Source: Arthrobacter cryoconiti
GTDB lineage: Bacteria; Actinomycetota; Actinomycetes; Actinomycetales; Micrococcaceae
DNA: 58,760 nucleotides
Reading direction: 5' to 3'
NCBI RefSeq assembly: GCF_020905375.1
Contig: NZ_JAJJBU010000002.1
Location: 1 to 58,760, forward strand
Shown here in pieces: positions 11,557 through 58,760 of this stretch. Numbering within the stretch: the stretch's first letter is position 1; each line of letters opens with the position of its first letter. The position numbers and the translations under genes were made by a program. Under the pieces are notes generated by a model. It did no database searches, was not told the DNA's origin, and saw only the letters and a program-made list of their open reading frames with translations.

Positions 11557-12004
11557 TTGATGGCATGATGCAGGGGGCGGTTACGTCCCAAGGAATGGTG
11601 GAGTTTGCCTCGACACCGTGCGGTGTCGACGCCGACCGAAAATAGGGCCAGTAGTGCCGAAAACCGACGGCTAGGTCCCTAGATGCCAGACGTTTGACGG
11701 TCTGACGGTCTGGACCACTTGTCGGGGCTCCGGTGAGATTCGTGGGCAGCGATCGAAGGATTGAGCATGGCTAAGCCGAATCGAATAGCCGGTGAGTCGA
11801 CGGATCTGTGCAACGTTTGTAGGGCACGGGATCGGAATTGAGCGGTCCGAACGCTGGAAGTAGGTTGGGGAGACTTGCCCTCGCCCTGCAAGTTGCAGTG
11901 ATGGCCAGGCGAGTGCGGGGCTTATGGTGGGAGGATGCGGTCCGCATGGATTTGGCACGCCGGTTGATAAAATGGATTTTCATACTTGTAGATTGGGGCT
12001 GCAA
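11557..12004. other. Non-coding stretch before the PD-(D/E)XK-like gene
   Basis: About 450 bases with no convincing gene. It contains a CGACACCG/CGGTGTCG hairpin (around 11607-11625) and a tandem GACGGTCT (about 11697-11713). Base composition becomes more AT-rich towards 12000. Confidence 0.35.
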
Positions 12005-16600: not shown

Positions 16601-18798
16601 TTGATATTGCCGACCTCAACGCCGTTGCCATGCGCAACGTTCCTCCCACTCCAGCGAACTATGCCCAGAGAAGTGGCCGGGCTGGAAGGTCGGGTCAGCC
16701 AGCCTTGGTACTGACCTACTGTGCCACGGGCAGTCCGCATGATTCGTATTACTTCGAGCGCTCAGATCTGATGGTTTCCGGGCAGGTGCAACCGCCTCGC
16801 CTCGACTTTGCCAATGAGGACTTGGTTCGTTCCCACGTGCATGCTGTGTGGCTAGCTGAAGCGCTAGCTGCAACAAAGACCGGTCTAGGTAAATCCATGA
16901 GCGGCTTGTTGAAGCTCGAAGACAAGAGCTACCCGCTTCAAGCTCAAATCAAGGCCGTCTTGGCTGATCAAAATGCAGGGGAAAGGGCCAAAAGTTCCGC
17001 CAAAGTCCTCATGCGCAGCATCGAAGGTGAATTGCGAGACACCCCATGGTGGACAGAGGCTTGGTCGGACCAAGTGATTGAGAATGCATTGACCAGCTTT
17101 GATCAGTCGTGTGAGCGTTGGCGCCAGCTGTACCGCAGCGCCATCGCTGAACAGGATGCCGCGCACCGGGCCAGCCAAGATCATTCCACGGATTCGAAGC
17201 AACGTGAATTGGCAATTAGCAGGCACCGTGAGGCTGGCCAGCGCCTTGAAATTCTCCTCAATGACAGTGATTCACGTGGCCAGTCGGACTTCTATACCCT
17301 GCGGTACCTTGCATCCGAAGGGTTTCTGCCTGGTTATTCGTTCCCGCGGCTGCCGCTTGCAGCTTTCATTCCGGGCCAGCGGCGTGGCAAGGACAGCAAT
17401 AGCACCTGGCTACAGCGCTCTCGCTTCCTGGCCATCAGTGAGTTCGGCCCGGATGCGCTGATCTATCACGAGGGCGCGCGCTACCAGGTCAAACGGGTGA
17501 GCCTACCTCGGGACTCCGATGGCGGTGGCGTCGGGGATGTTGTCTTGGGTGAGGCACGCGTTTGTGACGCCTGCGGATACCTGCACCAACGGCAAGCCGG
17601 TCTGGATATCTGTGAGTCCTGTGAAGAACCGTTAGCAGGAAGCTGGTCCAATCTCATGCAATTGCAGTCGGTCATCACACGACGGCGCGAAAGAATTAGC
17701 GCCGATGAGGAAGAACGCAATAGGCAAGGCTTCGAGTTGGTTACCAACTATCGGTTTGCCCCGCATGGGGAAAAACCGGGACATTCGGATGCCGCAATCC
17801 TGAATGGCCAGAACAGTCTGGGACATGTTCTTTACGGTGATGGAGCCACAGTCCGCGTTACGAACCTCGGCCGTCGTAATCGTGCCCAGCAGGACCGCCA
17901 TGGTTTTTGGCTGGATCTCATTACAGGGGAGTGGCTCTCGGAAAAGAAGGCAACTTCGGAAACGGGTGAAGTGGGCGATCTTTCGGACGCTGATGATGCC
18001 ACCGTCGAGCAGTCCAAAAAGAAACAAATGGTCACCCCGTATGTCGAAGACAGACGGAACATTGCCGTCATTCGATGGCATGACGTGTTGACGACGGCGG
18101 AGTCAACGTCCATGCAGTTCGCGCTCGAGCGGGGCATTGAAGCCGTCTTCCAACTGGAAGATTCCGAGCTCTCGAGTGAGTTACTGGCCGACAACGAGGA
18201 CCGTGGACGGCTGCTATTCATTGAAGCAGCCGAAGGCGGTGCAGGAGTACTTCGACGCCTCCAAGGTGAGACTGATGCGATGGCTAGGGTTGCCGTCAAG
18301 GCTTTGGAGATTCTCCATATAGATACCCAGACGGGGCAGGAGCTGGAAAACGCGTGTGTCCGGGGGTGTTACCGCTGTCTCCTGTCCTACGGCAACCAGC
18401 GTGACCATGAGATCATCGATCGCCGTCTTATCATCGACCGCCTGCTTCAATTGGCGGGAGCAACCACGGTGGCTTCTGTTGAACCCCGGCAAGCTAAACA
18501 TTCCTTGCCGCCGGGGACGGTGGTGAGCTTTCGCGCCGAAGAGCTCCTGACTTACCTGTTGGAGTCTGGCCGCCGACTTCCGGACGAGGTGGGCTCCACC
18601 CTGGAGGGCAACGTCGTCGATTTTGTCTATGCGACCGGTTTGTCAGTCCGTTCTGCTGTAATCGTGGAAGACCCCTCCCGGCCAGCCGTAGATACGATGG
18701 CCTTAACCTTCAGTAACTGGAACGTCATCACTTGGCGCTCCAACGCGGACATGGAAGTGTTCGTCAATGAACACGCAAACATTTTTGGAGCTGTGTAG
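13621..18798 (+). CDS. YprA/DruE-type DEAD-like helicase with C-terminal DUF1998
   Basis: Large superfamily 2 helicase (1725 residues), the hallmark protein of the DISARM/Druantia/Dpd-related defence group. Seen in order: Q-motif HRHQRDAI, Walker A TGTGSGKS near 115, DELH box near 233, GTSATMSS as motif III, zinc-type cysteine pairs CRECGQ (about 465) and CLNCQ (about 583), the second RecA domain with GVDIADLNA and YAQRSGRAGRSGQ near 1000, CDACG/CESCEE near 1316-1335, and a DUF1998/MZB end with CVRGCYRCLLSYG near 1580. In DISARM the DUF1998 part is usually a separate protein (DrmB); here it is fused, as in DruE. The start is a GTG after a GGGGG stretch. First gene of a six-gene operon; its TAG overlaps the next GTG. 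Confidence 0.85.
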   Translation: MDAFGIRDQLIEGYRSFTEGFVDIQDQRIKDAVVELGDKGRQWPDPWLSLNPSFSSGGRVDELVRRGLLHPDCDAIFRPKKDLSDRGSSPITLHRHQRDAIEIAAQKASYVLTTGTGSGKSLAYIVPIVDRVLREGTGKGIKAIIVYPMNALANSQMEELSKFLDFGFDGRPPVTFARYTGQERGEDRENILKNPPDILLTNYVMLEYVLTRPEERQSLIRAASGLQFLVLDELHTYRGRQGADVAMLVRRLRDACNAHQTLQCIGTSATMSSGGTLADQQKDVAKVASRIFGADITPEHVITETLVQATTSHHRSAGELRSAVLERGDAEFSSPTLSGGYTLMQSDPLASWIEDTFGLTTEPDSGRIVRRKPQTVTHAAEELATIAGEPVRKCATAIRATLLAGSKAKHSETNRPLFAFRLHQFISKAGSLYVTAESEDKRLIETNFQLTIGADEKRLYPLAFCRECGQEYLMARLTERDGEHRFITRHELKMQQSGGDDNGQDGYLYISTTQEWPDKAVEAGRIPGSWLSNAESGNPIIESKRKRIPARFRVQPDGSAAFDNEYTQGSGQLAAWVPGSLGFCLNCQVTYESARSGEFSKVVTLDQEGRSSAMTVIATKLVQLLRSNAGGDLKPQAKKLLTFVDNRQDASLQAGHLNDFVQVAQLRSALYRAVASAGDAGVEAMELGDAMVKTLDLAWTDYARTEDPLDPKPTKRALNEVVTYRALRDLQRGWRITLPNLEQTGLLVVDYPLAKNLAEQERRWEGAHYILRDADPGKREEIIRVLLDEFRRVLAIDAEELTADWLDRVKNRSREFLTGIWALPEQESAASVGLVTTEPKKMAFRTTLPITSYGTFGRWLAKTASPGGKLKRVEVDEVIASLFTILLETGFIAEVVEGKSAGYRLKLSSMVLKKGDGEYGAPDLLRRTYHADQKPRVIDFFKDLYLETGQELAGLKAAEHTAQVRADDRERREHEFRSAELPLLFCSPTMELGVDIADLNAVAMRNVPPTPANYAQRSGRAGRSGQPALVLTYCATGSPHDSYYFERSDLMVSGQVQPPRLDFANEDLVRSHVHAVWLAEALAATKTGLGKSMSGLLKLEDKSYPLQAQIKAVLADQNAGERAKSSAKVLMRSIEGELRDTPWWTEAWSDQVIENALTSFDQSCERWRQLYRSAIAEQDAAHRASQDHSTDSKQRELAISRHREAGQRLEILLNDSDSRGQSDFYTLRYLASEGFLPGYSFPRLPLAAFIPGQRRGKDSNSTWLQRSRFLAISEFGPDALIYHEGARYQVKRVSLPRDSDGGGVGDVVLGEARVCDACGYLHQRQAGLDICESCEEPLAGSWSNLMQLQSVITRRRERISADEEERNRQGFELVTNYRFAPHGEKPGHSDAAILNGQNSLGHVLYGDGATVRVTNLGRRNRAQQDRHGFWLDLITGEWLSEKKATSETGEVGDLSDADDATVEQSKKKQMVTPYVEDRRNIAVIRWHDVLTTAESTSMQFALERGIEAVFQLEDSELSSELLADNEDRGRLLFIEAAEGGAGVLRRLQGETDAMARVAVKALEILHIDTQTGQELENACVRGCYRCLLSYGNQRDHEIIDRRLIIDRLLQLAGATTVASVEPRQAKHSLPPGTVVSFRAEELLTYLLESGRRLPDEVGSTLEGNVVDFVYATGLSVRSAVIVEDPSRPAVDTMALTFSNWNVITWRSNADMEVFVNEHANIFGAV

Positions 18799-21659
18799 TG
18801 ACAAGTACGACGACGGAGCAGGGTTTTGCGATCGGCTCACTTGTCGCTGCGCGCGGCAGAGAATGGGTTGTCTTGCCAGAGAGTCAAACCGATTTTCTGG
18901 TGCTTCGACCCATCGGAGGCACTGACGACGACATTGCCGGCGTCATCCCGGCCATCGAGGACGTCGTCCACGCATCATTCGGGCTGCCATCAGCCACCGA
19001 CTTTGGTGATGACCGCAGTGCACGGCTGTTGCGCGATGCCCTGCGGATCGGTTTCCGCTCCAGCGGCGGTCCCTTCCGTTCGCTTGCCGGGCTGAACGTC
19101 AGCCCCCGCCCCTACCAGCTCGTCCCCTTGTTGTTGGCGCTCCGCCAAGACGTGGTTCGGCTCCTGATCGCCGATGACGTCGGAATTGGCAAGACCATTG
19201 AAGCAGGCCTGATTGCCTCCGAACTTATCGCCCAGGGTGACGCGGATGGTCTGGCGGTGCTGTGCCCTCCTAGCCTCGCCCAACAGTGGCAGCAGGAGCT
19301 TTCGGAAAAGTTTGGTATCGACGCCAAGCTAGTTCTTCCAGGAACAGTGAAGAGGCTTCAAAAAGAAGCCGGATACGACAAGTCGATCTTCGAGTACTTC
19401 AAATACACAATCGTCTCCACTGACTTCATTAAGTCCGAGTCCAAACGACATGACTTTATGAGGACAGCCCCAAACTTAGTCATTGTTGATGAGGCCCACG
19501 GCGTCAGTGCCGACGACTCCGGCAAGGGCGGCGCTGGCCGGACCCAACGCTATGAATTGGTGCGGGGCCTGGCCGACGATCCGGAGCGTCATCTCCTGTT
19601 GGTCACAGCCACCCCTCACAGTGGCAACGACGGTGCCTTCCGAAATTTGATTGGCCTGCTGGATAACTCGCTCAAGACTGCCGATCTCTCAACCGAGAGC
19701 GGCCGCCGCAAGTTGGCCGACCACATGGTTCAGCGCCGCCGCGTGGACATTCGCAGCTACCTAAAGTCGGACACCAAATTCCCCGATGACCGGCAAACCG
19801 TCGAAGTTGCCTACAAACTTTCCCCGGAGCACCGGGCATTTTTTGATGCCGTTCTCGACTACGTCCGAGGACAGGTACAGGACAACTCGGGCACCAAACG
19901 CGACCAGCGCATTCGTTGGTGGTCCGCACTTTCGCTCCTGCGCGCTATGGCATCTTCACCGGCTTCTGCGGCTGCGACATTGGGCACAAGGGCCATCGGT
20001 GAAGAAGCGGAAACTCGCGAAGCTGCCGAAAAACGCGGTATGGCCGTTGTTATGGACCAGGTGGAGGACGACGGTGGAGAAGCCATCGACGTCGTTCCAG
20101 GCTCACGTCCGAACACGATGGATGAGTCCTCGTCCCAGAAACGCAGTCTCAATACCTTCCTGAAAACAGCCAGACACCTCCAAGAGCACCCAGAGCTGGA
20201 TACCAAACTCCTGCTGCTTTTGAAGCGGACCAAGAATCTGATCGCCGATGGGTACCAGCCCATAGTCTTCTGCCGGTTCATCCCGACGGCGCATTATGTT
20301 GCCGAATACTTGCGCGATGCCGGCAAGAAGAAATTCGATGTCGAAGTTGTCACCGGCGAGCTTCCCTCGGAGGAACGCGCCGCTCGCATTGCCGCACAGG
20401 CCGAGCGTGCGCAGGACGTACCCAAGATCCTCGTGGCCACGGATTGCCTGTCGGAAGGTGTAAACCTGCAGGACGGTTTCCAGGCCGTCATCCACTATGA
20501 CCTTGCCTGGAACCCTACCCGGCATGAACAGCGAGAGGGCCGTGTTGACCGCTTCGGCCAGCTGTCCGAGACCGTTCGAGCCCTGACGCTTTACGGGGAC
20601 GACAACGGCATCGACGGTATTGTCTTGGAAGTCCTGCTCCGTAAGCATGAGAGCATCCGCCGGGATTTGGGTATCAGTGTCCCGGTGCCGCCCAAGAGCG
20701 ATCAGGTTCTGGCGGCCCTCTTGGAAGGCATTCTCATGCGGGGCAAGGACGGAGACCAGCTGGAATTGTTCACGTTGACACCCGAGGCAGAGCAATTTGA
20801 TGCTGATTGGCGCAGCAGCGCCGAGCAGGAAAAGATCAGCCGGTCTCGGTTCGCGCAAAACGCTGTGCGGCCTGAAGAGGTGGAAAAAGTGGTGGAGGCT
20901 GCCAAACGGAGTTTGGGGGATCCTGACGACGTTGCAGCATTTGTTCGTGCCGCATTGGAAGAAACTGGTGCGCATATTCAGGACTCTGAGAACGGTTTCA
21001 CTGCCGAGTTAACCGCTGCTGTCGCTGGAGTCCGCAGTGCGCTTAGAACGGACAAGGCTATGCGCTTTGTCAGTGACTTCCCGGCGCCCCGCAATGCTGC
21101 GGTTCTGGTCCGGACCGATCCAGCCGTTGCTGCAGCCGCCAACTACGTGCTGAATTCAGCCTTGGATGTGCAGCTCTCGGGCAAGGAACGTCCCGCCCGG
21201 CGTTGCGGTTTCATCAAGACGAACGACGTCGAACAGCTCACAGTTGCGCTGTTGGTGCGTTTCCGCACCAAGTTGGTGCTCCCAGCCCGGTTGGGAGACA
21301 GAACCGACATGGCCGAGGAAGCCCGGGTGCTGGCGTTTACCGGCTCCCCGAAGAATCCAATCTGGTTGGCGGAGGATCAGGTGGAGGCCTTGCTGGAATC
21401 CAAGCCGTCGGCCAATACCGGGGACGTCGGCAACATGATGACAAACATCCTGGACTCCATACCATTGTTGACCCCGCAGCTTAATGAAAAGGCGCAGGAA
21501 GTGGCGGATCAAATCCGCGATGCCCACCGCGAGGTCCGCATTGCCGCACGTGGCGACCGCGCCGGTCAACTGGGTATTCGTGGCCTCAGCGTTGAAGCCA
21601 ATCTTCCCGTCGATATACTCGGCGTCTATGTCTACAGCCCGGCCGGAGGCAACAATTGA
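18798..21659 (+). CDS. SNF2-family helicase (RapA/HepA-like, DrmD-like)
   Basis: A 953-residue Swi2/Snf2 ATPase resembling DrmD of class 1 DISARM. Motifs: DDVGIGKTIEAGLIASEL (Walker A) near 127, IVDEAHG (DEAH) near 231, LLLVTATPHSG (motif III), ILVATDCLSEGVNLQ and NPTRHEQREGRVDRFGQ (motifs V-VI) near 550-585. It probably translocates on double-stranded DNA using ATP. The GTG start overlaps the stop of the upstream helicase by one base and the TGA overlaps the start of the methyltransferase, so translation is coupled. The C-terminal 350 residues are unassigned and may contact the partner proteins. Confidence 0.85.
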   Translation: MTSTTTEQGFAIGSLVAARGREWVVLPESQTDFLVLRPIGGTDDDIAGVIPAIEDVVHASFGLPSATDFGDDRSARLLRDALRIGFRSSGGPFRSLAGLNVSPRPYQLVPLLLALRQDVVRLLIADDVGIGKTIEAGLIASELIAQGDADGLAVLCPPSLAQQWQQELSEKFGIDAKLVLPGTVKRLQKEAGYDKSIFEYFKYTIVSTDFIKSESKRHDFMRTAPNLVIVDEAHGVSADDSGKGGAGRTQRYELVRGLADDPERHLLLVTATPHSGNDGAFRNLIGLLDNSLKTADLSTESGRRKLADHMVQRRRVDIRSYLKSDTKFPDDRQTVEVAYKLSPEHRAFFDAVLDYVRGQVQDNSGTKRDQRIRWWSALSLLRAMASSPASAAATLGTRAIGEEAETREAAEKRGMAVVMDQVEDDGGEAIDVVPGSRPNTMDESSSQKRSLNTFLKTARHLQEHPELDTKLLLLLKRTKNLIADGYQPIVFCRFIPTAHYVAEYLRDAGKKKFDVEVVTGELPSEERAARIAAQAERAQDVPKILVATDCLSEGVNLQDGFQAVIHYDLAWNPTRHEQREGRVDRFGQLSETVRALTLYGDDNGIDGIVLEVLLRKHESIRRDLGISVPVPPKSDQVLAALLEGILMRGKDGDQLELFTLTPEAEQFDADWRSSAEQEKISRSRFAQNAVRPEEVEKVVEAAKRSLGDPDDVAAFVRAALEETGAHIQDSENGFTAELTAAVAGVRSALRTDKAMRFVSDFPAPRNAAVLVRTDPAVAAAANYVLNSALDVQLSGKERPARRCGFIKTNDVEQLTVALLVRFRTKLVLPARLGDRTDMAEEARVLAFTGSPKNPIWLAEDQVEALLESKPSANTGDVGNMMTNILDSIPLLTPQLNEKAQEVADQIRDAHREVRIAARGDRAGQLGIRGLSVEANLPVDILGVYVYSPAGGNN

Positions 21660-24600
21660 GCACCGCATTTCAAGCCATCACCGTTGTGGGCGGCGTTGTC
21701 CCACCTTCCTTGTTGGGCCGTATCCAGTCCGGTGAAGTTAACGACGTCAAGAGCTTGGCTCCGGCCGGCTACCACCTGATCGGCACCGAAACAATCCGTG
21801 ACGCCGCCTCGCGAACCTGGATGTACCTGCAGGACGCCTGGAGCGCTTGGCGAGAATCCGATGCCTCGAAACGACCCGACGGAGAAGGCGCCGGAACCGG
21901 TGACGCCCGGCAAAAGTGGCTTCTTGTCCTGCTGCGCGAGCTTGGTTATGGCCATGTTCAGGTTACCCCTGGCGGCCTGACTATCGGCGAGGACAGCTAC
22001 CCCATATCGCACCGGTGGGAGTCCGTTCCTATCCATTTGTTGGGTCCAGGACTGAATCTGGACAAGCGGACTCCGAAAGAGGCCGGTGCCGCACGACGCG
22101 CTCCACAGGCAATGGTGCAGGAATTCCTCAATCGCGAGGACAACTACTTGTGGGCCATTCTGAGCAATGGGCTGAAGCTGCGTCTGCTCCGTGATTCCAC
22201 CGCACTGGCGGGTTCGGCATACATCGAATTTGACCTTGAAACGATCTTCGATTCAGATCTGTATTCAGAGTTTCAGCTTCTGTGGCAGCTGTGTCATGAG
22301 TCCCGACTTGCCAAGCGGGGTGGTGCCGATGCTCCGGCCGACGACTGTTGGTTGGAAACTTGGCGCAGCGAATCCGTGCAGGCCGGGGCCCGTGCGCTGG
22401 ATAAACTCGGCTCCGGAGTCGAAAACGCACTTAACAGCCTTGGCACAGGGTTCCTGCGTCATCCTGACAACAGCTGGCTCCTCGAAGCATTGCACACGGG
22501 CGAACTCCGACACCGCGACTTCCACAAGGCCCTTCTTCGCACCGCCTATAGGCTTCTCTTCCTCTTTGTAGTGGAAGACCGTGGGGCACTCCTTGATCCT
22601 GAAGCCAACAAACTATCCCGCCAACGTTACGATGACTATTTCTCCACGCATCGATTGCGCAAGATGGCAAGGACGCGCGACGGCGGTCCTCATCCCGACC
22701 TGTGGCGCACACAAAAGATGGTACTTTCAGCCCTCGGCGGCGAAGGCCTGACAACAATTGGGCTGCCGGCCCTGGGCGGTCTCTTCGACCCAGACCCGCG
22801 AGCCAAAAAGGTTGAAGGGCAGTCACAAGACGACCTCCTTCTGGGTGCAGAGCTGGCCAATCAGGACTTCCTGAAAGCAATCCGCAGTTTAGGGTGGGTG
22901 TTGGGCAAATCCGGGCGTATGCAGCCGGTGGACTATCGCCACTTGGGAGCTGAAGAACTGGGCTCCGTTTATGAGTCGCTGTTGGAGTTTGTGGCCAAGG
23001 TTGACACTGAAACACGCTCATTCAAGCTGGCCCTCTTGTCCGGTAACGACCGCAAGACCACAGGCTCTTACTACACGCCGCCCAATCTGGTTTCCGCACT
23101 GCTGGACACGGCCTTGGATCCGCTTCTAGACGCTGCCGTCAACGGTGGCGGCAATACGGCGGACAGAGAGTCCCGCCTACTGGCCCTGACCGTTTGCGAC
23201 CCGGCCTCCGGTTCCGGAGGGTTTCTGGTTGCCGCTGCCCGACGTATTGCACGTCGTGTGGCCGAGGTCCGCGCCGGCGACAATGAGCCGACTCCTTCGG
23301 AGGTGCAAACTGCCCTGCACGATGTGGTCGAACGCTGCATCTACGGCGTAGATATGAACGACCTTGCCGCAGAGTTGGCCAAGGTGTCTCTGTGGCTCGA
23401 AGCCATGCAGCCCGGAAAACCATTGGGATTCCTGGACGCACGCATCAAGATCGGCAACAGCCTCCTCGGCACGACACCGGCACTCCTTGCGGGCGGTGTT
23501 CCGGACGGGGCCTTCACAGTCCTGGAAGGGGACGATAAGAAGCACGCTGCGGAAGCCAAGAAACGAAACAAGGCCGAGAACACACGCACAGTAGACCAAT
23601 TATTTGGATCCCTGGGCCAAGATGCCTTCAGCTTTGGCGGCACAACGTCAGCACTGGCCACTCTAATCAGCCAACGCCAGAATCTCGTAAAACCAGTCTC
23701 GAGCGCCCAAGAAGCGCGTGCACGAGCCAAGGCCTACACAGCCTTCGACCAGTCCGAAGGCATGGAACAAAAACGGCTCCACGCCGACGCATGGTGCGCA
23801 GCCTTTGTCTGGCCACTGAAAGTAGGCGAACCTGAACCTCCGACGTCTTCCATCGTCCGGCAATTGGGTGAGTCCGGCACGTCGGCTGGCTACGCGGAAA
23901 CTGTGGAGCTTGTCCGCAAGCTGGCCCACGACTATCGCTTCTTCCATTGGCACCTGGAGTATCCAGAAATCTTTGGGGACTCCGAAGCCAGCGACGACGT
24001 CGGTGCGGAGGGATGGCCTGGAGGTTTTTCCTGCATGCTTGGTAACCCGCCGTGGGAACGTGTCAAGCTTCAGGAGCAGGAGTTCTTTGCAGCCCGTAAT
24101 GAGGCAATTGCAAAGGCGCCGAATGCGGCCGCAAGAACGCGTTTGATCAAGAACTTGGTTGATGACGATCCGATTCTCCATCGCGACTTTTTGCAGGCCA
24201 AACGTGAGGCTGAGGGGCAGAGCGTTTCCATGCGAACTTCTGGCCGTTACCCGTTCAATGGGCGCGGAGATGTCAATACTTATGCGGTGTTTGCTGAGCT
24301 TTTCCGAAGTTTGACAGGCCCTCACGGCCGCTCGGGTGTCATCGTCCCCACGGGCATTGCCACAGACGCAACCACCCAGTATTTCTTCAAGGATCTCGTA
24401 GAGAGCAGCACCATCGCAGCACTGTATGACTTTGAAAACCGGGCCCCACTTTTTCAGGACGTCGATTCAAGGTTCAAGTTCTGCTTGCTAACGGTAGCGG
24501 GCCGGGAGGCGAAGGAAGAAACAGCATCATTCGCGTTCTTCCTTCACGACCCTGCTGATATTTCGGTGTCGGAGTTCGACCTCAGTCCGGCGGAGATCAA

Positions 24601-25669
24601 ACTGATCAATCCAAACACGGGAACCTTGCCGATCTTCCGGACGCGCCGTGATGCGGAAATCACCCTCGGCATCTATCGTCGCGTGCCAGTCCTTATCAAT
24701 GAGAGCGACCCCATCAACGGCAACCCATGGGGCGTCTCCTTCATGACGATGTTCCACATGTCGAATGATTCTCACCTGTTCTATACCCGTGAACAACTCG
24801 AGAACGACGGCTGGACCCTTAACGGCAACGCCTTCGAGCGCGAAATCGTCGGGGGGGGGGGTGATAGAATGCTTCCTCTTTATGAAGCGAAGATGTTCCA
24901 CCAATTCGATCACCGTTGGGCAACCTACGATGGCCTCGACGTTCGCGATGCCTCACTTGCAGAGAAGTGCAACAAGGCATTCACGGTGCTCCCGCGTTAC
25001 TGGGTTGCCGATGAGGAAATCAATGCCCGCCTGTCGGGAAAATGGGATAAGTCATGGCTGCTGGCCTTCCGCGACATTGCACGGTCGACAGACGAACGCA
25101 CAATGATCGCCAGCGCATTGCCACGAGTTGCCGTGGGACACACAGCGCCAATTGTTGATGCAGATTGTCCGCTGGTTCTCAGCGCCATGTGGGCCTCGTT
25201 GGCGTTCGACTACGTTGCACGACAAAAAGTTGGTGGCACCCACATGACGTACTCCTACCTCAAGCAACTACCGATGTTGGATCGCGAGACCCTCGAAGCA
25301 CCAGCTTTATGGGACAGCACTCAGTCGCTCCGGGAGTGGATTGAAGACCGTGCATTGAGGTTGATAGTCACTGCGGACGATGTCGTCTCTGCGTTGGAAA
25401 CGAACACGATCGAATGGAACGATTCGGAGCGTCTAATCATTCGTGCCGAACTCGACGCCGCATTTCTGGTCCTATTTGGCGCTACCAGAACGGACGCTGA
25501 ACATATCTTGGACTCATTCCCGATCGTACGACGCAAAGAATGGATCGAGCATGGCCGATTCCTCACGAAGGAACGCGTTCTGGATTCATTTGATCAGCTG
25601 CGTGATGCCATGAACGCCGGGCTGCCATACAACTCAAGGTTGAATACCTCGCAAGGAGCCACAGCATGA
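21656..25669 (+). CDS. N6-adenine DNA methyltransferase (DrmMI/PglX/Eco57I-like), phase-variable candidate
   Basis: A 1337-residue gamma-type adenine methyltransferase. Motif X-like TGSYYTPPNLVSALLD lies near 468, motif I DPASGSGGFLVAAARRI near 515 (AdoMet binding), and motif IV NPPW near 797 (catalysis). The region from about 1071 to the end is the target-recognition part: its ends are nearly identical to the next gene's product while its centre differs. An 11-G tract encodes Gly1066-Gly1069 exactly at the core/recognition junction and is in frame as written. The start is a TTG inside the stop of the SNF2 gene. Likely role: marks host DNA and supplies specificity to the defence complex. Full length is larger than DNA-modifying PglX enzymes only slightly. 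Confidence 0.87.
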   Translation: MSTAFQAITVVGGVVPPSLLGRIQSGEVNDVKSLAPAGYHLIGTETIRDAASRTWMYLQDAWSAWRESDASKRPDGEGAGTGDARQKWLLVLLRELGYGHVQVTPGGLTIGEDSYPISHRWESVPIHLLGPGLNLDKRTPKEAGAARRAPQAMVQEFLNREDNYLWAILSNGLKLRLLRDSTALAGSAYIEFDLETIFDSDLYSEFQLLWQLCHESRLAKRGGADAPADDCWLETWRSESVQAGARALDKLGSGVENALNSLGTGFLRHPDNSWLLEALHTGELRHRDFHKALLRTAYRLLFLFVVEDRGALLDPEANKLSRQRYDDYFSTHRLRKMARTRDGGPHPDLWRTQKMVLSALGGEGLTTIGLPALGGLFDPDPRAKKVEGQSQDDLLLGAELANQDFLKAIRSLGWVLGKSGRMQPVDYRHLGAEELGSVYESLLEFVAKVDTETRSFKLALLSGNDRKTTGSYYTPPNLVSALLDTALDPLLDAAVNGGGNTADRESRLLALTVCDPASGSGGFLVAAARRIARRVAEVRAGDNEPTPSEVQTALHDVVERCIYGVDMNDLAAELAKVSLWLEAMQPGKPLGFLDARIKIGNSLLGTTPALLAGGVPDGAFTVLEGDDKKHAAEAKKRNKAENTRTVDQLFGSLGQDAFSFGGTTSALATLISQRQNLVKPVSSAQEARARAKAYTAFDQSEGMEQKRLHADAWCAAFVWPLKVGEPEPPTSSIVRQLGESGTSAGYAETVELVRKLAHDYRFFHWHLEYPEIFGDSEASDDVGAEGWPGGFSCMLGNPPWERVKLQEQEFFAARNEAIAKAPNAAARTRLIKNLVDDDPILHRDFLQAKREAEGQSVSMRTSGRYPFNGRGDVNTYAVFAELFRSLTGPHGRSGVIVPTGIATDATTQYFFKDLVESSTIAALYDFENRAPLFQDVDSRFKFCLLTVAGREAKEETASFAFFLHDPADISVSEFDLSPAEIKLINPNTGTLPIFRTRRDAEITLGIYRRVPVLINESDPINGNPWGVSFMTMFHMSNDSHLFYTREQLENDGWTLNGNAFEREIVGGGGDRMLPLYEAKMFHQFDHRWATYDGLDVRDASLAEKCNKAFTVLPRYWVADEEINARLSGKWDKSWLLAFRDIARSTDERTMIASALPRVAVGHTAPIVDADCPLVLSAMWASLAFDYVARQKVGGTHMTYSYLKQLPMLDRETLEAPALWDSTQSLREWIEDRALRLIVTADDVVSALETNTIEWNDSERLIIRAELDAAFLVLFGATRTDAEHILDSFPIVRRKEWIEHGRFLTKERVLDSFDQLRDAMNAGLPYNSRLNTSQGATA
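24851..24861 (+). repeat. Poly-G tract (11 G) within the methyltransferase gene
   Basis: Uninterrupted run of 11 G, followed by TGATAGAATG. With 11 G the frame stays open (Gly-Gly-Gly-Gly-Asp-Arg-Met). With 12 G the next codons are TGA TAG. With 10 G the frame runs to a stop at 25106. The ATG at 24869 is seven bases after the tract, so the G run could also serve as a ribosome-binding site. Such tracts are classic slipped-strand phase-variation sites; pglX of Streptomyces coelicolor is a known precedent. Confidence 0.75.
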
Positions 25670-26526
25670 CCACGACCACCGAACGCATGCTTCCCCTCTA
25701 CGAAGCCAAGATGATCCACCAGTTCGATCATCGCTGGGCAACCTATGAAGGTCTCCATGTAAGGGACGTTACGGTGGAAGAGAAAGCTGATCCATCGTTC
25801 ACGGTTCTCCCGAGATACTGGATTGAAAATACAGAAGTTGAATCTACTCTCAGCGAGGACTGGGTTGTGGGATTCCGCGATATTGCGCGAGCGACTGATG
25901 AAAGAACTACGATTTGCACGAATTTCCCGAGAGCTGGGGTTGGAAATAAGCTGCCAATTCTTCGATCGTCTGATGCGGATATATGGGTACTACCTACAAT
26001 ACTAAGTTCATTCGCTCAAGATTTTGTAAGTCGAACCAAGATCAGTAGTACTTCGTTGAACTTTTTCTTGGTAAAGCAGTTTCCGGTGCTTCCTCCGTCG
26101 ATACTTCGTGGGCCTACTAAATGGGACCATCCAGAGACTCTTCTGATCGATTGGATAGGGCCCAGAGTGGCGGAGCTGGAATATATGACGCACGAGGTAA
26201 TCCCAGCGTCTGCACAGAAACTGGAGTGTGGCGGCCCCTTCGTCTGGAATTCTGAACGACGCTCTCAAATTCGCGCCGAACTTGATGCGGCCTTCTTCTA
26301 CCTCTATGGCATTGTTCGCAGCGACGTCGATTACATCATGAACACATTTCCCATCGTGAAGCGCAAGGATGAATCTGTCTTCGGGGAATTCCAAACGAAA
26401 CGTCTGATCTTGGAAGCGTACGATGCCATGCAAGTCGCCATCGTTACCGGCGTTCCGTTCGAGTCCACACTCAATCCACCTCCGGGTCAGGGCCTCCGTC
26501 ATCCTGCAAAGGAAACCGTCTCATGA
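25666..26526 (+). CDS. Stand-alone target-recognition subunit paralogous to the methyltransferase C-terminus
   Basis: A 286-residue protein with no methyltransferase motif. Residues 7-34 match methyltransferase residues 1071-1098 at 25 of 28 positions (RMLPLYEAKM then HQFDHRWATY). The segments FRDIARATDERT and RAELDAAFFYLYG...FPIVKRKD are also shared. The middle 100 or so residues diverge, as expected for a target-recognition domain with different specificity. Its ATG overlaps the methyltransferase stop (ATGA) and its own stop overlaps the McrB-like start (ATGA), so it is co-translated. It has its own start and looks intact, not like debris. Probable function: an alternative specificity subunit used in trans, or a donor for recombination. 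Confidence 0.75.
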   Translation: MTTTTERMLPLYEAKMIHQFDHRWATYEGLHVRDVTVEEKADPSFTVLPRYWIENTEVESTLSEDWVVGFRDIARATDERTTICTNFPRAGVGNKLPILRSSDADIWVLPTILSSFAQDFVSRTKISSTSLNFFLVKQFPVLPPSILRGPTKWDHPETLLIDWIGPRVAELEYMTHEVIPASAQKLECGGPFVWNSERRSQIRAELDAAFFYLYGIVRSDVDYIMNTFPIVKRKDESVFGEFQTKRLILEAYDAMQVAIVTGVPFESTLNPPPGQGLRHPAKETVS

Positions 26527-29500
26527 GCACACAGCAGTGGAAAGAATTCATGGAATTTGCGGCCAAATTCGCCAAAACGGTCGATCTTGATGCCGAAGAA
26601 TATGACTACAAGCTGGTCCTCGCTGAACGGTTGACGCAGACGAGAGAGTTGTTCCTTTCAAAGGACTCGGGATGGTTCGAGGCGCTGCGTAAGGACATTG
26701 CGTCGTCGAACCTCATGAACCAATACTTCATGATGCGGCTGATAGAGAAAGGGCGGACGCAGCCAGACGACCTTTGGGACATCATCAATCTGCTCTGGCG
26801 TAGGGATGAACCGTCTGCAGATCATATTGATGATTTCAGCGAACGCCTACGGCCCTTCAATCCCCAGCAACTGTCTGTCGGTGGAATCGTGGGATTCGCA
26901 TCTCTGCTGCTAATGACGCGTGATCCTCATCGTTTTCCGCCTTACCGAGCGCGGGCCGTCAAGAAGTTCCTAAAACTTGTCGGATGGGATGACCGAGGCT
27001 CCAACGGAACACCATCGCGCCGATACGAGCTCTTGCTGGAGGCCTTGGACGAGATGCTTCGGCTGGCACCAGACGCGGGGATCGTGCTCCGGGACCGGCT
27101 GGACGCCCAAGGTCTTCTCTGGACAGTAATGAATGTTGATCCTACTGGGGAGTGGTCTTCAATAGAAGCCGCTGCACTGCGAAATTGGCGAGGAGAAGAA
27201 ATGACAATAGTCGAAACTGACTATGTTCGCGGATTTGGGCTCGAACCGGTATTGGAAACCGCTGCGCGATTGATCATTGATGCCGGTATTCGAGGAGAGT
27301 CGTCACCGTTCTGGCCCCAAGGTTGTTCGTGGACAGAACAGAATGCAGCTGAATTGATCAAGCGCATTTATGAGAACTTTGACGGTGGCGACGATCCGTT
27401 CATGGTGAAACTGGAACGACAGCTCAGTGGCGCCGCCGTTGGGGTTTACGTCCTGGCGGCAGAGTTCATGGCTCTGCATATGCTTCCCCTGATCAATGTT
27501 CGAAGTGAGACGAAACTATCCAGAGTCGAAGAGATCCTTGGCTGGAGTGGTGAGAGCCTGGCGATTCCCGACGTCATCAGGGCCGGTCTGTTTGCCGGAG
27601 GTTCATTCCATGGAGGAACCGGTTTCAATGTAAGAATGTGGCGGCACTTCTGTTGGCTTGCAAGGTTTGTCTTGCAGGTGCGTACGACATCGGCCAGAGA
27701 ACTGGAAGACGATCTCGCAGATCCTAGGAAGTTTGCCCTGCTCACGGAGTCTGTTCCGGACGACCCTCTGGGCATCAAATACTCGCTGGAGTACCTGGCG
27801 TGGCCAACATACTTTGAACCCATCACGAGCAGGACTCACCGTGTGCGCATCCAACAAGCATTCGCGGCGGACATCGAGGGAACATCCGGCTCAACGGATC
27901 CGGATATTTCTTGGGACCTGCATCGAATTCGGCAAGTCCACGAGGCCGCAGCCGACGGTCCGTCGGTGGACTGGTACGTGGAGCCCTACTTCAGCCGATG
28001 GATGAAGGGCGGTGTTAGCGGCCAGCGAGCATGGCTTGTCCGGCAGAGCCAGGGTGGTGTCGCCATGCTGGATTCATGGCTTGAATGTGGTTTCATTTCC
28101 ACACGCGCCCAGCATTTAGGTTCTCCCAAACCCGGGTCAGGATTCGACGATGTCCAGACCGCCGTCAACCAGGGATACCAGCACATCGATTACTCGGAGC
28201 GGAAGGCCCGTGCACAAGAGTACTTTCGATTCTTGAGCCAGATGAAACCGGATGATTTCGTGCTGACTGCTGCCGAGGGCGAGCTGTATCTCGGCATCGT
28301 ATCGGGCGACGCCGAATATGCAGACGATGAGACTTCCCGGCTGCGTCGCCGCGTAGATTGGCAATCGAACGGCATTAGCAGTGAAAACTTGCCGGCGCCG
28401 CTTCCTCGTCTGCTCGAGGAACAAGGCTCCGTGGTAGACCTGACGGACGCGCTCTCTGTGATCGCACCTTGGTTCGTAACAGACTTAGACCTCCCCTCGG
28501 ACAAGGCGGACCTGGCACCCCAGCCGCAACCCGCCGTCGTACCTTCCCTGCGGGAAGCGACTCCGGAGCTTGCCCGCAAGCTCTACGTTCCCCGCGACGA
28601 TCTCCAGGAAATAATCCGGTTGCTGCAGACCCGGCAACAGATCGTGTTCTATGGCCCTCCAGGAACGGGCAAGACATTCTTGGCTGGCAAGATTGCCAGG
28701 TTCCTAGCTGGGGACGAACATGGCGACCACGTCAAGACTGTGCAGTTCCACCCGTCCTATGCCTATGAGGATTTCTTTGAAGGCTACCGCCCGGCGAAGG
28801 CCGAAGGTGGCAACGTCGGATTCGCGCTAGAGCCGGGACCGCTGCGACGCATTGCCGCCGAGGCTGCCGCTGACGGCAACCGAGACAAGCCTTACTTCTT
28901 GATCATCGACGAGATGAACCGTGGAAACCTGGCAAAGATTTTTGGCGAATTGTATTTCCTGCTGGAGTACCGGGAACAGAGCATCAATCTCCAGTACAAC
29001 TCGGAACAGACCTTTGTGTTGCCCCCGAACCTCTTTATTATCGGCACGATGAACACTGCCGATCGCTCGATTGCGATGGTGGATGCGGCCATCCGACGCA
29101 GATTTGCCTTCGTTGAGCTGCACCCACAAGACGGGATGATCGCCGGCATGTTGGAACGGTTCCTTGAAGGCAATGGAAAGCCGCTGCTTCGATCGAGTCT
29201 GCTCAATGCGTTGAATTCCGAAATCGAGGAAACCAGCCGTGACTTGATGATAGGACCTTCGTATTTCATGAAGGCACACGCAGAGAGTAACCAAGGGCTG
29301 GCTGACATTTGGAAGTATGAGCTGCTGCCTCTCTTGGAGGAGCAATACTTTGGTCGAATGAGCCGAGACAAAGTGCGGGAGAAATTTGGGCTGGAAACGT
29401 TGCTAAAGAAGGTTGCTTTGCTAGCCGGCCCGATTGACATGCTCGTTGATGAGTCCACTGACGCCAGCTTCGACGGAGAAACCCATGCCTCGAGTATTGA

Positions 29501-29531
29501 TCAGATGGACGTTGAAGACGCAGGCCATTGA
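26523..29531 (+). CDS. mcrB: McrB-like GTPase with probable EVE/PUA-like modified-base reader
   Basis: A 1002-residue AAA+ NTPase of the McrB family, the motor of type IV (modification-dependent) restriction. Walker A GPPGTGKTFLAGK lies near 709, Walker B LIIDEMNRGNLAKIFGEL near 795, and the McrB signature IGTMNTADRSIAMVD near 843. Upstream, about 500-640, WLVRQ...MKPDDFVLT...ELYLGIVSGDAEY...RRRVDW has the layout of an EVE/PUA-like domain, known to read modified cytosine and found in McrB-type proteins. The first about 480 residues are helical and unassigned. It overlaps its neighbours on both sides (ATGA at the start, TGATG at the end), so it belongs to the operon with the helicases and methyltransferase. 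Confidence 0.82.
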   Translation: MSTQQWKEFMEFAAKFAKTVDLDAEEYDYKLVLAERLTQTRELFLSKDSGWFEALRKDIASSNLMNQYFMMRLIEKGRTQPDDLWDIINLLWRRDEPSADHIDDFSERLRPFNPQQLSVGGIVGFASLLLMTRDPHRFPPYRARAVKKFLKLVGWDDRGSNGTPSRRYELLLEALDEMLRLAPDAGIVLRDRLDAQGLLWTVMNVDPTGEWSSIEAAALRNWRGEEMTIVETDYVRGFGLEPVLETAARLIIDAGIRGESSPFWPQGCSWTEQNAAELIKRIYENFDGGDDPFMVKLERQLSGAAVGVYVLAAEFMALHMLPLINVRSETKLSRVEEILGWSGESLAIPDVIRAGLFAGGSFHGGTGFNVRMWRHFCWLARFVLQVRTTSARELEDDLADPRKFALLTESVPDDPLGIKYSLEYLAWPTYFEPITSRTHRVRIQQAFAADIEGTSGSTDPDISWDLHRIRQVHEAAADGPSVDWYVEPYFSRWMKGGVSGQRAWLVRQSQGGVAMLDSWLECGFISTRAQHLGSPKPGSGFDDVQTAVNQGYQHIDYSERKARAQEYFRFLSQMKPDDFVLTAAEGELYLGIVSGDAEYADDETSRLRRRVDWQSNGISSENLPAPLPRLLEEQGSVVDLTDALSVIAPWFVTDLDLPSDKADLAPQPQPAVVPSLREATPELARKLYVPRDDLQEIIRLLQTRQQIVFYGPPGTGKTFLAGKIARFLAGDEHGDHVKTVQFHPSYAYEDFFEGYRPAKAEGGNVGFALEPGPLRRIAAEAAADGNRDKPYFLIIDEMNRGNLAKIFGELYFLLEYREQSINLQYNSEQTFVLPPNLFIIGTMNTADRSIAMVDAAIRRRFAFVELHPQDGMIAGMLERFLEGNGKPLLRSSLLNALNSEIEETSRDLMIGPSYFMKAHAESNQGLADIWKYELLPLLEEQYFGRMSRDKVREKFGLETLLKKVALLAGPIDMLVDESTDASFDGETHASSIDQMDVEDAGH

Positions 29532-30745
29532 TGCTGAAACATCTCGTACTTGATGAACTTCAATCGGATTCAGCTCCGGTAGAGCTAGACGACGAAACCG
29601 TCTCTAGTCTTGGCTTGACCGGCCTCGTATCTGTGATGCCTGCGCATGGTGGGATGTGGAAAATCCTGCCGTGCGGCCCGGTAGGTGCTGTGCAGATTGG
29701 TGGGTTGCTGGTTGAAGTGAAGCCAAAGGCAAAAGTGGGGCTGAGCAGGCTTTTGTTCTTGCTGGGCTATGCAAAAGATCCGGGGTTTCGCCCAGAGGAT
29801 GTTGCCGGGCTGGAATACACCGATCTTTTTTCGGCACTGGCTGAATCGCTTGCCCGGCAAGTCTCAGGTGCACTGAGCCGAGGAGTACACAGTGGATATG
29901 TAACCCTCGACGAAGCATTGCGCACCGTGCGAGGCAAGATCCGTGTGGGCGACCAAATGTCACGGCGTCCCGGAATGCTGATTCCACTCGAGGTTACCTA
30001 CGACGACTTCACGGTGGACATTCCGGAGAACCGCATTCTGCGCAGCGCCCTGCGGCTCATGATGCAGGTGCCGCGACTTGCGAATGATGTCGTGGCCAAA
30101 CTTGCCCATCTGGATTCAAAGTTGGATGGCGTTTCGCTGCTGCGATGGGGGAGCCCGTTGCCTGCATGGACGCCGTCCCGCCTCAACGACCGTTACGTTC
30201 CGGCGCTCCGCCTTGCGGAAATAGTCTTGAAGAATATGTCGGCAGAAGCCGGGTTGGGGCCGCACCGGGTGGCGTCCTTTGTGGTGAACATGTCCACTGT
30301 CTTCGAGGACTTTGTTACGACAGCGTTGGCTGAATCGCTATCCAAATATCCAGGGCAAACTGTTGCGCAGTATCCCGCGTATTTCGACGCAGATGATGGC
30401 TTTCCGAATTCTCAGCGGGTGCGAATGTACGTGGACGTTGTTCATGAAGTTCGCGGGCGTGCGGCGCTGATTTTCGATGCCAAGTACAAGGCATCATCGT
30501 GGTCGGGGGCGTATCCGAATGCCGATTATTATCAAATGTTGGCATACTGTACGGCTCTGGACTTACCGCGGGCCTGGTTGGTGTACGCGGGGAGTGGTAG
30601 TCCAAGAGTGAGATCTGTGGCCAACAGTTCAGTTTCGATTGCCGAGTTTCCCATTGACGTTTCTCAAACACCCGAAGCACTACTGAGTAGCGTTGATGCG
30701 CTGGTGGAGGCAGCAGCGGACGCGTCTCTGCTGGCCCTTCGTTGA
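29531..30745 (+). CDS. mcrC: McrC endonuclease subunit
   Basis: A 404-residue McrC-family protein that supplies the nuclease for the McrB ring. The N-terminal beta domain has GLVSVMPAHGG and GGLLVEVKPK. The C-terminal PD-(D/E)XK core has MYVDVVHE followed by ALIFDAKYKA (Asp and DAK near 316). VRGKIRVGDQMSRRPG is typical of the family's middle region. It starts at the ATG overlapping the McrB stop (TGATG). Last gene of the six-gene operon; a 355-base gap follows. Confidence 0.88.
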   Translation: MLKHLVLDELQSDSAPVELDDETVSSLGLTGLVSVMPAHGGMWKILPCGPVGAVQIGGLLVEVKPKAKVGLSRLLFLLGYAKDPGFRPEDVAGLEYTDLFSALAESLARQVSGALSRGVHSGYVTLDEALRTVRGKIRVGDQMSRRPGMLIPLEVTYDDFTVDIPENRILRSALRLMMQVPRLANDVVAKLAHLDSKLDGVSLLRWGSPLPAWTPSRLNDRYVPALRLAEIVLKNMSAEAGLGPHRVASFVVNMSTVFEDFVTTALAESLSKYPGQTVAQYPAYFDADDGFPNSQRVRMYVDVVHEVRGRAALIFDAKYKASSWSGAYPNADYYQMLAYCTALDLPRAWLVYAGSGSPRVRSVANSSVSIAEFPIDVSQTPEALLSSVDALVEAAADASLLALR

Positions 30746-31100: not shown

Positions 31101-33503
31101 ATGAGCGTTGAGGTTGACCGTTTCAACGACAGCGATGTGGAAATTCAAGTGGAGCAGGATTTTTTTGATCTTGCAGTGGCAGAACGAACACGTGCCAACG
31201 CTTGGACAGACACGTCCACATGGTCGGGCGGAACAGCAGCTGAACGGCGAGGGTTTCAGCGTATCCGTGACGCCAAAACGGCATTCAGCGACGACGATCA
31301 GGTGGCGCATGGAAGTATCACCCTAGAAGACGGGGAGACTTATCATGTGGGAAAGCTGCCGGTCTTTACTGAAGACCGCGATGCCCTAGTGGTCAGTTGG
31401 CAATCTGAGAAGGGTGCCCTGTACAACCAGGCCAGCTACAGCGACCCTCGGGGGCTGACCGCCAAGAGAGCAATTGTCGCTCCCCGCAACAAAGTGTTGT
31501 CAGTAGTTGACACCATTTTCGCCGATGTTCAAGCCAAAGTTGCGGAACTTCGTGGAGAGTCAAAGCCAGATGACGCGCTCTTGTCGTCGTTGGAATCCAG
31601 CCGCGATGGCTCAATGTCCGATATCGCCAGCACCATTCAGGCGGCCCAGGACAGAATTATTCGCTCAGACAAGGATCAATTGCTGGTGGTGCAGGGCGGT
31701 CCGGGAACGGGAAAGACTGCAGTTGCCCTGCACCGCGTTTCTTGGCTCCTATACAATTTTCCCGAAGAGTTGAAAGCCACAGACATCCTCGTCGTTGGCC
31801 CTAACCCCACTTTTACTCGGTACATTCGCCAAGTCCTGCCGTCGCTTGGCGATGAAAATGTGGTGCAAAAGGCCTTGAAGAACTTGCTGTCGCCCGGAAT
31901 AACCGCAGTAGGCAGTTACAATGACGCGACAGCCGAGCTCAAGGGTTCAGCGATCATGCTTGACCTATTGGCAACAGCCCTTGATGACCGCATTCGAGAA
32001 CCTGTGGATCCGGTAACGCTTCGCCTTCGCAACAGTGGTCGGAGCGTAGACCTTGATCAGCGTGCAGTTTCAGAGCGAATTCGCCAACTTCGAAGCGAAA
32101 TTTATGTCAGCGGGAGATCCATGCTTAGAGACTTTCTAGTGGAACTGGCCGGCATCGAGCTTAAGCTTCTCGCGGGCACTACGGCGGCAGAGATGTTGGA
32201 CTCCAAAGCGCTGGATTCGGCGACAGATCGAATGTGGCCACAATTGTCAGCTCAACAATTCCTTCGTGAGCTCCTAGGCTCCAAAGAACGATTGCTTCGG
32301 GCAGCCCCCATGCAGTTTCTGGCAGCAGACATCGAGACTTTGCATCGGCCATCCGCAGACAAGGTGAGCGATGAGCCTTGGACAATCGCCGATCTAGCCC
32401 TGCTAGATGAAGCCAACGAACTGTTGCGCGGTGAGCCCGAACTCTTCGGGCACATCGTCGTAGACGAAGCCCAAGACTTGTCGGAAATGCAGCTAGCCGC
32501 AATCCGGAGACGGTCCCGGACTGGCGCCATGACAATTGTTGGAGACATTGCTCAATCGACGGGACCGCATGCTTCCGACGATTGGGAGTCAACGAAGTCT
32601 TCTTTGTCTTCCAATTTGCCGGTGAATGAAGCCACGCTTGAACATGGATACCGAGTTCCGCGTGAGGTGTTCGAGGTCGCCCTTCCTGTATTGAAAGTTG
32701 CTGCACCGGGGGTTACTCCTCCTCGGATTGTCCGTGATTCGGGTGTGCAACCTCGGTTTACGAGTGTAGACGAAGGACAGTTCCATGAGGCTTTGGTCGA
32801 AGTTATTCGAGAGCATGCTGCCAGTGGCCGATCCGTCGGCGTCATCGCCCGGCTAGAACAATGGCCTGAAATTCGGGAGGAACTCAAGGCGACAGACAGC
32901 AAATGGGGAGAATCCATTTCTGGCCAGTTGACCAGTGCCATCAATCTCGTCACTCCTGAAGACTCCAAAGGTCTGGAGTTCGATGCAGTTGTCGTAGTTG
33001 ATCCTCAAGATATTCTCAACATGCCAAGAGGTGAGCGCTTCCTCTACATTGCGCTTACGAGAACCACCACATTCCTCGACGTCATCTATCCGTCGGGACG
33101 ACTCCCGAAGATCTTCGATACCGAATCCACAGAGTCGGAGAGTAGTCCACAGCTGCAGGGCGACATGTCGGGTTTTCGCGAGACCGTGACTGAGGCAGAG
33201 CAGGGCATCGAGCAGCCTGAAAGTTTGACAGGATCTCACGCTGAGGCAGCGACAGAGCCCACCTCAGGACGGCTAGAGGAAACCGTGGTCCCGTCGATCG
33301 CTACTCCCAAGGCTACGGCACCTAGTCAGAGTACGCAGGAATCATTGACTCCTCCTGCAGCTGTCCGTCTTTCCGGCGCTGCACTCAGGGGTGTGCAGTC
33401 AAACGCACGCATACTTCTGGATGAGTTGGTCGAAATATCCCCAGCGAAACACTGGGAATCGGTTGTTGCAGAGCTGGCACGTCTGATCGAGGAGTCTCGA
33501 TAG
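31101..33503 (+). CDS. HelD-like superfamily 1 (UvrD/Rep) helicase
   Basis: An 800-residue UvrD/Rep-type ATPase close to HelD, a protein that binds RNA polymerase and removes stalled complexes. Walker A VQGGPGTGKTAVALHR lies near 198, ILVVGPNPTF is typical of HelD, DEAQD box near 454, motif III TIVGDIAQS, then GLEFDAVVVVD and YIALTRTT as motifs V-VI. The N-terminal region before Walker A would be the coiled-coil arm. A Thr/Ser/Pro-rich linker (about 680-755) precedes a short C-terminal helix. ATG is preceded by GGAAG. It could be housekeeping or an added defence or antibiotic-tolerance factor; its location inside the island suggests the latter. Confidence 0.8.
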   Translation: MSVEVDRFNDSDVEIQVEQDFFDLAVAERTRANAWTDTSTWSGGTAAERRGFQRIRDAKTAFSDDDQVAHGSITLEDGETYHVGKLPVFTEDRDALVVSWQSEKGALYNQASYSDPRGLTAKRAIVAPRNKVLSVVDTIFADVQAKVAELRGESKPDDALLSSLESSRDGSMSDIASTIQAAQDRIIRSDKDQLLVVQGGPGTGKTAVALHRVSWLLYNFPEELKATDILVVGPNPTFTRYIRQVLPSLGDENVVQKALKNLLSPGITAVGSYNDATAELKGSAIMLDLLATALDDRIREPVDPVTLRLRNSGRSVDLDQRAVSERIRQLRSEIYVSGRSMLRDFLVELAGIELKLLAGTTAAEMLDSKALDSATDRMWPQLSAQQFLRELLGSKERLLRAAPMQFLAADIETLHRPSADKVSDEPWTIADLALLDEANELLRGEPELFGHIVVDEAQDLSEMQLAAIRRRSRTGAMTIVGDIAQSTGPHASDDWESTKSSLSSNLPVNEATLEHGYRVPREVFEVALPVLKVAAPGVTPPRIVRDSGVQPRFTSVDEGQFHEALVEVIREHAASGRSVGVIARLEQWPEIREELKATDSKWGESISGQLTSAINLVTPEDSKGLEFDAVVVVDPQDILNMPRGERFLYIALTRTTTFLDVIYPSGRLPKIFDTESTESESSPQLQGDMSGFRETVTEAEQGIEQPESLTGSHAEAATEPTSGRLEETVVPSIATPKATAPSQSTQESLTPPAAVRLSGAALRGVQSNARILLDELVEISPAKHWESVVAELARLIEESR

Positions 33504-58720: not shown

Positions 58721-58760
58721 CCACAAAAGAGCAGCGGGCCCCCACCCCGCAAGGGGGGGG

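Follow-up and report, generated by a model that had tools for sequence, protein, structure and literature searches.

How does the DNA methyltransferase of a bacterial defence system come to be followed by a second, free-standing domain of the kind with which such enzymes recognize their target, and what might that free domain do? The question is raised by contig NZ_JAJJBU010000002.1 of Arthrobacter cryoconiti (assembly GCF_020905375.1, a 3.6-Mb genome), whose entire length of 58,760 nucleotides is the stretch analysed here (the window). In it, a PglX-like adenine methyltransferase carries a C-terminal recognition domain (C-terminal domain 1, CTD1) that is joined to the core of the enzyme across a run of eleven guanines (G11), and is followed by an overlapping gene for a separate recognition domain, CTD2. 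From the sequence, we propose that CTD2 may be the original C-terminal domain of the enzyme, now a coupled gene, and that slippage in the G tract may toggle the methylated site through the use of CTD2 in trans, a proposal to which we give about an even chance of being right.

The open reading frame (ORF) of CTD2, at 25666-26526, is uninterrupted for 286 codons between the methyltransferase gene and an McrB-like gene, and overlaps both by ATGA, its start with the methyltransferase stop (25666) and its stop with the next start (26523), as an earlier note on this DNA had stated. In a genome search its product and the final ~270 residues of the methyltransferase show 46% identity (E 1.5e-69), and alignment to methyltransferase residues ~1069-1334 gives a BLOSUM62 local score of 585, against 61 for the best of 200 shuffles, which bears out the view that the ORF is real and homologous to the recognition region. 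Identity between CTD1 and CTD2 is 25/30 at the start, 32/64 in the next segment, 31/87 in the centre and 34/79 at the end, 122/260 in total; the earlier count of 25 of 28 starting residues is exact for RMLPLYEAKM...VRD, and the accompanying description of conserved ends around a divergent centre holds for the start and the centre but not for the C-terminal end, where conservation is moderate (43%). Over the first 33 codons, codon positions 1, 2 and 3 carry 6, 2 and 18 differences, a spread that points to constraint at the protein level at the start of the domain. Structure prediction yields for CTD2, with high confidence, a single target-recognition domain (TRD) followed by a helical tail, as in M.BseCI, CamA and PglX, so that by its model CTD2 appears to have the TRD fold of gamma-class methyltransferases (PglX/MmeI/M.BseCI/CamA type) together with the helices that follow it. 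CTD2 also keeps 93% of the conserved positions of such domains. The comparison with a swappable type I HsdS module survives as regards a free target-recognition module beside a PglX-like methyltransferase, with HsdS-like logic, but does not extend to Pfam-level likeness, the free protein matching no Pfam family, HsdS included, at E 0.1. HsdS carries two TRDs separated by conserved helices; weak HsdS rows occur among the CTD2 comparisons, which are not enough to rule HsdS out, and the CTD profile has no match at E 0.1 among the sequences of Protein Data Bank chains.

The elements around the junction are these:

21656-25669, forward strand: PglX/DrmMI-like adenine methyltransferase of 1337 residues (Pfam Eco57I, MmeI_Mtase, N6_Mtase), with residues 1 to ~1065 as its core
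24851-24861, forward strand: G11 homopolymer at the boundary of core and recognition domain, coding for GGGG (residues 1066-1069)
24862-24867, forward strand: TGA TAG, two stops that come into frame once the tract changes by +1 or -2
24869-25669, forward strand: fused recognition domain CTD1, probably an insert, starting at an in-frame internal ATG directly after the tract
25653-25658, forward strand: AAGGAG, candidate ribosome site assigned by eye, 7 nt 5' of the CTD2 start
25666-26526, forward strand: free-standing recognition subunit CTD2 of 286 residues, by homology, fold and tails the putative displaced native C-terminus of the methyltransferase

The tract, a two-state version of which the earlier note had implied, lies directly 5' of the block common to both CTDs, and its length governs what is joined to the core. 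With 11 G, the state in the assembly, the frame stays open and core and CTD1 form one chain; with 12 or 9 G, translation stops at once at TGA TAG (1069 or 1068 residues), and with 10 or 13 G it stops some 80 codons downstream (1149 or 1150 residues). The in-frame ATG at 24869, 3' of the tract, makes a separately produced CTD1 conceivable. An AlphaFold model of methyltransferase residues 420-1337, built on an alignment of 60 rows (predicted local distance difference test, pLDDT, 89.6; predicted template modelling score, pTM, 0.87), matches CamA, BrxX, MmeI and PglX, and puts most of GGGG in the loop that links two predicted strands, with the fourth glycine as the first residue of the second strand. 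Homopolymer runs of at least 7 near the CTD start were found in the window (G11), in locus L017 (C11) and in L073 (A7) only, in a scan of L001-L093 and the window that covered 200 nt 5' to 60 nt 3' of the CTD start and in which L001, L002, L003 and L012 are copies of the window; among 104 distinct core/CTD junctions, a list whose motif filter missed CTD1 of L017, the longest run after the window's is 6. Judged by its position at a domain boundary, and by a frame that would decide which recognition part is joined, the tract appears to be of the JHP1272/NgoAV kind.

Which of the two domains is the newcomer? Methyltransferase cores in related loci are 84% (L096), 80% (L015) and 78% (L097) identical to that of the window, whereas no CTD is more than 57% identical to either window CTD in an alignment of 127 rows (each a distinct CTD that spans 225 or more positions of the profile, from loci up to L169, window copies excluded); turnover is thus faster in recognition domains than in cores. 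Over its final 90 residues, CTD2 shares 62-71% identity with the C-terminal ends of the L097, L015, L096, L094, L095 and L016 methyltransferases, compared with 33-40% for the same portion of the fused CTD1; in more distant loci the tails are less clear-cut (42-65% for CTD2, 28-41% for CTD1). In all six loci ATGA is shared by the methyltransferase stop and the following start, and wherever the sequence reaches far enough, in five of them, the following gene matches McrB; L016 is a 4.3-kb contig. L005 (from the same-genus genome G052) and L016 (Arthrobacter sp. E3) give the same CTD and frame. Tails and position together lead us to read the free CTD2 as best explained by displacement of the original methyltransferase C-terminus, and we infer that the fused CTD1 and the G11 tract are the insert. 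The earlier description of the free protein as a copy of the present methyltransferase C-terminus probably has the relation reversed. Three of the six loci show irregularities of their own (an in-frame stop in the core of L095, a frame break inside the CTD of L096, a stretch of N in the L094 core), and none of L094, L095 and L096 showed a homopolymer run of at least 8.

Phylogeny is less informative. The tree of 127 rows groups the fused CTD1 with a free CTD of L017 (its CTD2) at an SH-like approximate likelihood ratio (SH-aLRT) support of 87, within a six-row set supported at 96, while the window CTD2 has no resolved place in a 20-row group that includes this set; a 30-row tree again pairs CTD1 with the L017 free CTD2 (86/79). 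The CTD tree by itself is no more than suggestive as to the origin. Simple local duplication was not adopted as the origin, CTD1 and CTD2 being 46% identical and not nearest relatives, although their sisterhood is still allowed by the approximately unbiased (AU) test described below.

Recognition domains made apart from a core occur elsewhere, in line with the earlier suggestion to look for further cassettes in related genomes. CTDs without a core in their own frame number four of the 127, namely that of the window, two in L017 and one in L103/L146. L017, from a Propionibacterium metagenome-assembled genome, has a core, a C11 run at the boundary equivalent to that of the window G11 but out of frame, CTD1 in another frame, an ATGA overlap, and CTD2 with AGGAGG; an acetyltransferase-like ORF (by eye, L017:10787-11000) follows the free CTD2, and the McrB match begins ~2.2 kb further on. 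In L146, the end of a CTD, next to the contig boundary, is followed by a gene for a YhcG/DUF1016 PDDEXK nuclease (reverse strand, 471-1541), the free-standing CTD and ORFs that by eye resemble McrB and McrC. In the proteobacterial loci L028, L038, L042 and L057, CTD genes stand apart from the core with PIN-domain genes and small antitoxin-like ORFs between; these CTDs are preceded by 24-38 residues of core end and were hence scored as fused. The toxin-antitoxin-like pairs lie at the same protein position (L028:9187-9848, L038:9245-9902, L057:9137-9902, L042:558-1258), with PIN in all four, DUF2281 as the small partner in two, no Pfam match for the small ORF of L042, and in every case a CTD start that overlaps the PIN stop by ATGA; both helicases of the system are present in three of these loci, L042 being cut by its contig. 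CTDs made apart from a core thus total eight of 127, in seven loci. Of the 153 relatives that the genome scan gave, the 80 best were taken into the analysis; genome searches had matches in 9/395 genomes of the family, 16/396 of the order, 31/394 of the class and 17/396 of the phylum, counts that include the own genome and come with overlapping memberships and differing E-value limits. Among 18 genomes of the family of G551, G551 itself was the only match. Phage records gave no match and viral contigs one relative, L169, which is not free-standing; 108 plasmid records had a match.

To which system does the methyltransferase belong? It is accompanied by four further genes:

13621-18798, forward strand: YprA/DruE-like DEAD-box helicase with an MrfA-type Zn-binding domain, the ARMADA YprA homologue (PADLOC DruE3, E 8.8e-107; Pfam DEAD, Helicase_C, MZB), in the same order in relatives
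18798-21659, forward strand: SNF2/RapA helicase, BrxHII/DrmD/DpdE-like (PADLOC DpdE, 4e-287; DrmD, 2.1e-89)
26523-29531, forward strand: McrB-like AAA_5 protein (Pfam AAA_5; 80% identity to the neighbour in L097)
29528-30745, forward strand: McrC (Pfam McrBC, E 3.3e-56)

DISARM, the context named in the earlier note, is ruled out: for DISARM class 1, DrmD scores 328.6 bits of the 610 needed and DrmA 17.1 of 950, far under the curated NCBIfam cut-offs, so that only the PglX-like part of that label stands. What is found instead is the order of ARMADA Type I, a YprA-family helicase, a BrxHII/RapA-like helicase and a PglX-like methyltransferase, which, as far as the accessible text of a preprint goes, is the one given for that type, with an association with McrBC mentioned and the ARMADA YprA described as nearest to Druantia (PMC12458937). 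The best PADLOC match of the window homologue, DruE, agrees with the latter remark. ARMADA Type I with McrBC is the assignment that suits this gene order. In tblastn searches, 68 of 73 loci have both helicases and 15 of 73 have McrB together with McrC, lower bounds since contig ends cut loci (the 73 being those, from 82 long loci, with a methyltransferase core of more than 700 residues in one match). Other genes nearby are one for a UvrD/GajB-like helicase after McrC (31101-33503; L015 has one in the same place, at 47% identity), one for a PDC-M36A-like protein directly upstream of the YprA helicase (11924-13426), and, on the reverse strand, one for an IetA-like AAA ATPase (40719-43249) that adjoins a DUF6414 protein and may belong to a second defence module.

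The earlier opinion that no equivalent had been described proved too strong, for Type IIG enzymes whose specificity changes with the reading frame are already on record; the comparisons that follow refer to the accessible portions of the papers cited. In Helicobacter pylori JHP1272 and HP1353-HP1354, adenine methyltransferases with a TRD in the same chain, a second homopolymer decides whether an extra C-terminal, TRD-like domain is joined, and the methylated site changes with it (PMC3936762); there, however, the extra domain is added and the enzyme keeps its own TRD, whereas in the window a whole domain would be attached or lost, with a second complete one in an overlapping gene, and the system is ARMADA. 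In gonococcal NgoAV, the frame of a poly-G tract likewise fuses or separates two recognition parts, hsdS1 and hsdS2, and shifts specificity, but in a Type I system with a separate HsdM (PMC9577141). EcoKI has overlapping, translationally coupled M and S genes, and its engineered M-S fusion is active, which implies that cis and trans arrangements are interchangeable there and by analogy favours CTD2 in trans, though EcoKI uses two M per S and the window has one TRD and a methyltransferase that is normally fused (PMC3510504). BREX PglX/BrxX shares the order of methyltransferase, TRD and helical spacer, with a C-terminal domain that sets the motif, but is a single chain for which the accessible text describes no free second TRD (PMC11341690). 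ARMADA Type I itself has the same three-gene order and McrBC association, but no split or second specificity subunit is described in the portions available, and the words "phase", "frameshift" and "recognition domain" do not occur in the main text of the preprint (PMC12458937). In the literature searched, which also took in PMC12839542, PMC11090510 and PMC12707154, nothing was found that describes a second, free TRD, a tract-switched fusion or a toxin-antitoxin-split methyltransferase for ARMADA, most subscription papers lying outside the search.

How, then, might the locus work? The PglX-like methyltransferase of this ARMADA Type I system would have in CTD2 a complete specificity subunit with a single TRD and its helical tail. 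A further recognition domain, attached to the core by a slippage-prone G tract, would have landed in front of the original CTD, which would thereby have become a separate gene, translationally coupled to judge by the overlap. With 11 G, the core would use the fused CTD1 in cis; with 9, 10, 12 or 13 G, it would end at or soon after the tract and need a domain supplied in trans, above all CTD2. Slippage would then toggle the site that is methylated, and so protected from the helicase/McrBC arm, instead of switching the system off. In this scheme, variation of the tract in cells, translational coupling, docking of CTD2 in trans and the reading of different sites by the two domains are presumed steps; use of CTD2 in trans, and hence the specificity toggle, which depends on it, is the reading that we favour.

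Several observations weigh against it. The AU test does not reject sisterhood of CTD1 and CTD2 (p 0.42) or that of the L017 pair (p 0.117); separate CTDs in tandem occur in only three loci, a rare layout; the tract length comes from one assembly, which has poly-G runs at contig ends; conserved positions are kept less well in the free CTDs of L017 (88% and 79%) and L103 (80%) and in the fused CTD1 of the window (80%); and CTD2 has a guanine-plus-cytosine content of 0.49-0.53 against 0.58 in the core, a less simple fit to a long-resident native domain. In the accessible text of the respective studies, moreover, the CTD of PglX could not be expressed alone (PMC11341690) and the product of NgoAV hsdS2 alone is described as inactive (PMC9577141).

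These last two reports, and the rarity of the layout, would suit an alternative that we consider unlikely, though a serious contender, in which CTD2 is a silent remnant or donor cassette: a leftover native C-terminus, perhaps translated, that renders no service in trans and is only material for recombination, the tract then acting as an on/off switch of the core-CTD1 enzyme. A direct repeat of 76%, formed by the opening 98 nt of the two CTDs, is compatible with this. Against it speak the candidate ribosome site, the ATGA overlaps at both ends and the lack of a stop in 286 codons, the high share of conserved positions retained by CTD2 and its clean predicted fold, the same arrangement, with AGGAGG, in L017, and the existence of core and CTD as separate genes in L028, L038, L042 and L057. 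A competitor or regulator, which would bind its own DNA site or the core, helicase or McrB and tune the fused enzyme without ever being its specificity subunit, seems improbable: in the present state the core is already fused to CTD1, leaving no vacant core for CTD2, and CTD2 directly precedes McrB, but nothing positive speaks for a regulatory role, and the conserved positions that it keeps suggest an ordinary TRD role. Runs of poly-G or poly-C of 8-17 occur at contig ends in this assembly (end of C6, start of C20, end of C35, and G8 at window 58753-58760), and are possibly sequencing artefacts or real breaks at homopolymers. That G11 or its frame is an assembly error, or the methyltransferase a recently broken one without selected function, is the least probable of the alternatives: these runs, the poly-G artefacts that two-colour sequencing can give and the methyltransferase breaks in L095 and L096 would agree with it, but G11 sits inside the contig between unique flanks and keeps the frame, the unrelated assembly of L017 has a C11 at the corresponding boundary, and CTD2 has candidate translation signals of its own.

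Returning to the proposed toggle, we extend it, tentatively and at somewhat under an even chance, to the family: ARMADA methyltransferases may be natural modular M + S enzymes, whose recognition domain can be fused, freed by slippage, duplicated or preceded by a toxin-antitoxin-like pair, and can serve in cis or in trans, with slippage in the window reversibly swapping a fused foreign TRD for the displaced native one. If the proposal is true, one-base slippage would rebuild a single-chain PglX-type enzyme as a core with interchangeable specificity subunits, without recombination. It would also provide a simple testable system, with one core, two recognition domains and a countable tract, and a natural split point at which to engineer programmable PglX-like methyltransferases, and would explain how PglX-type defences could change their targets fast and yet stay active.
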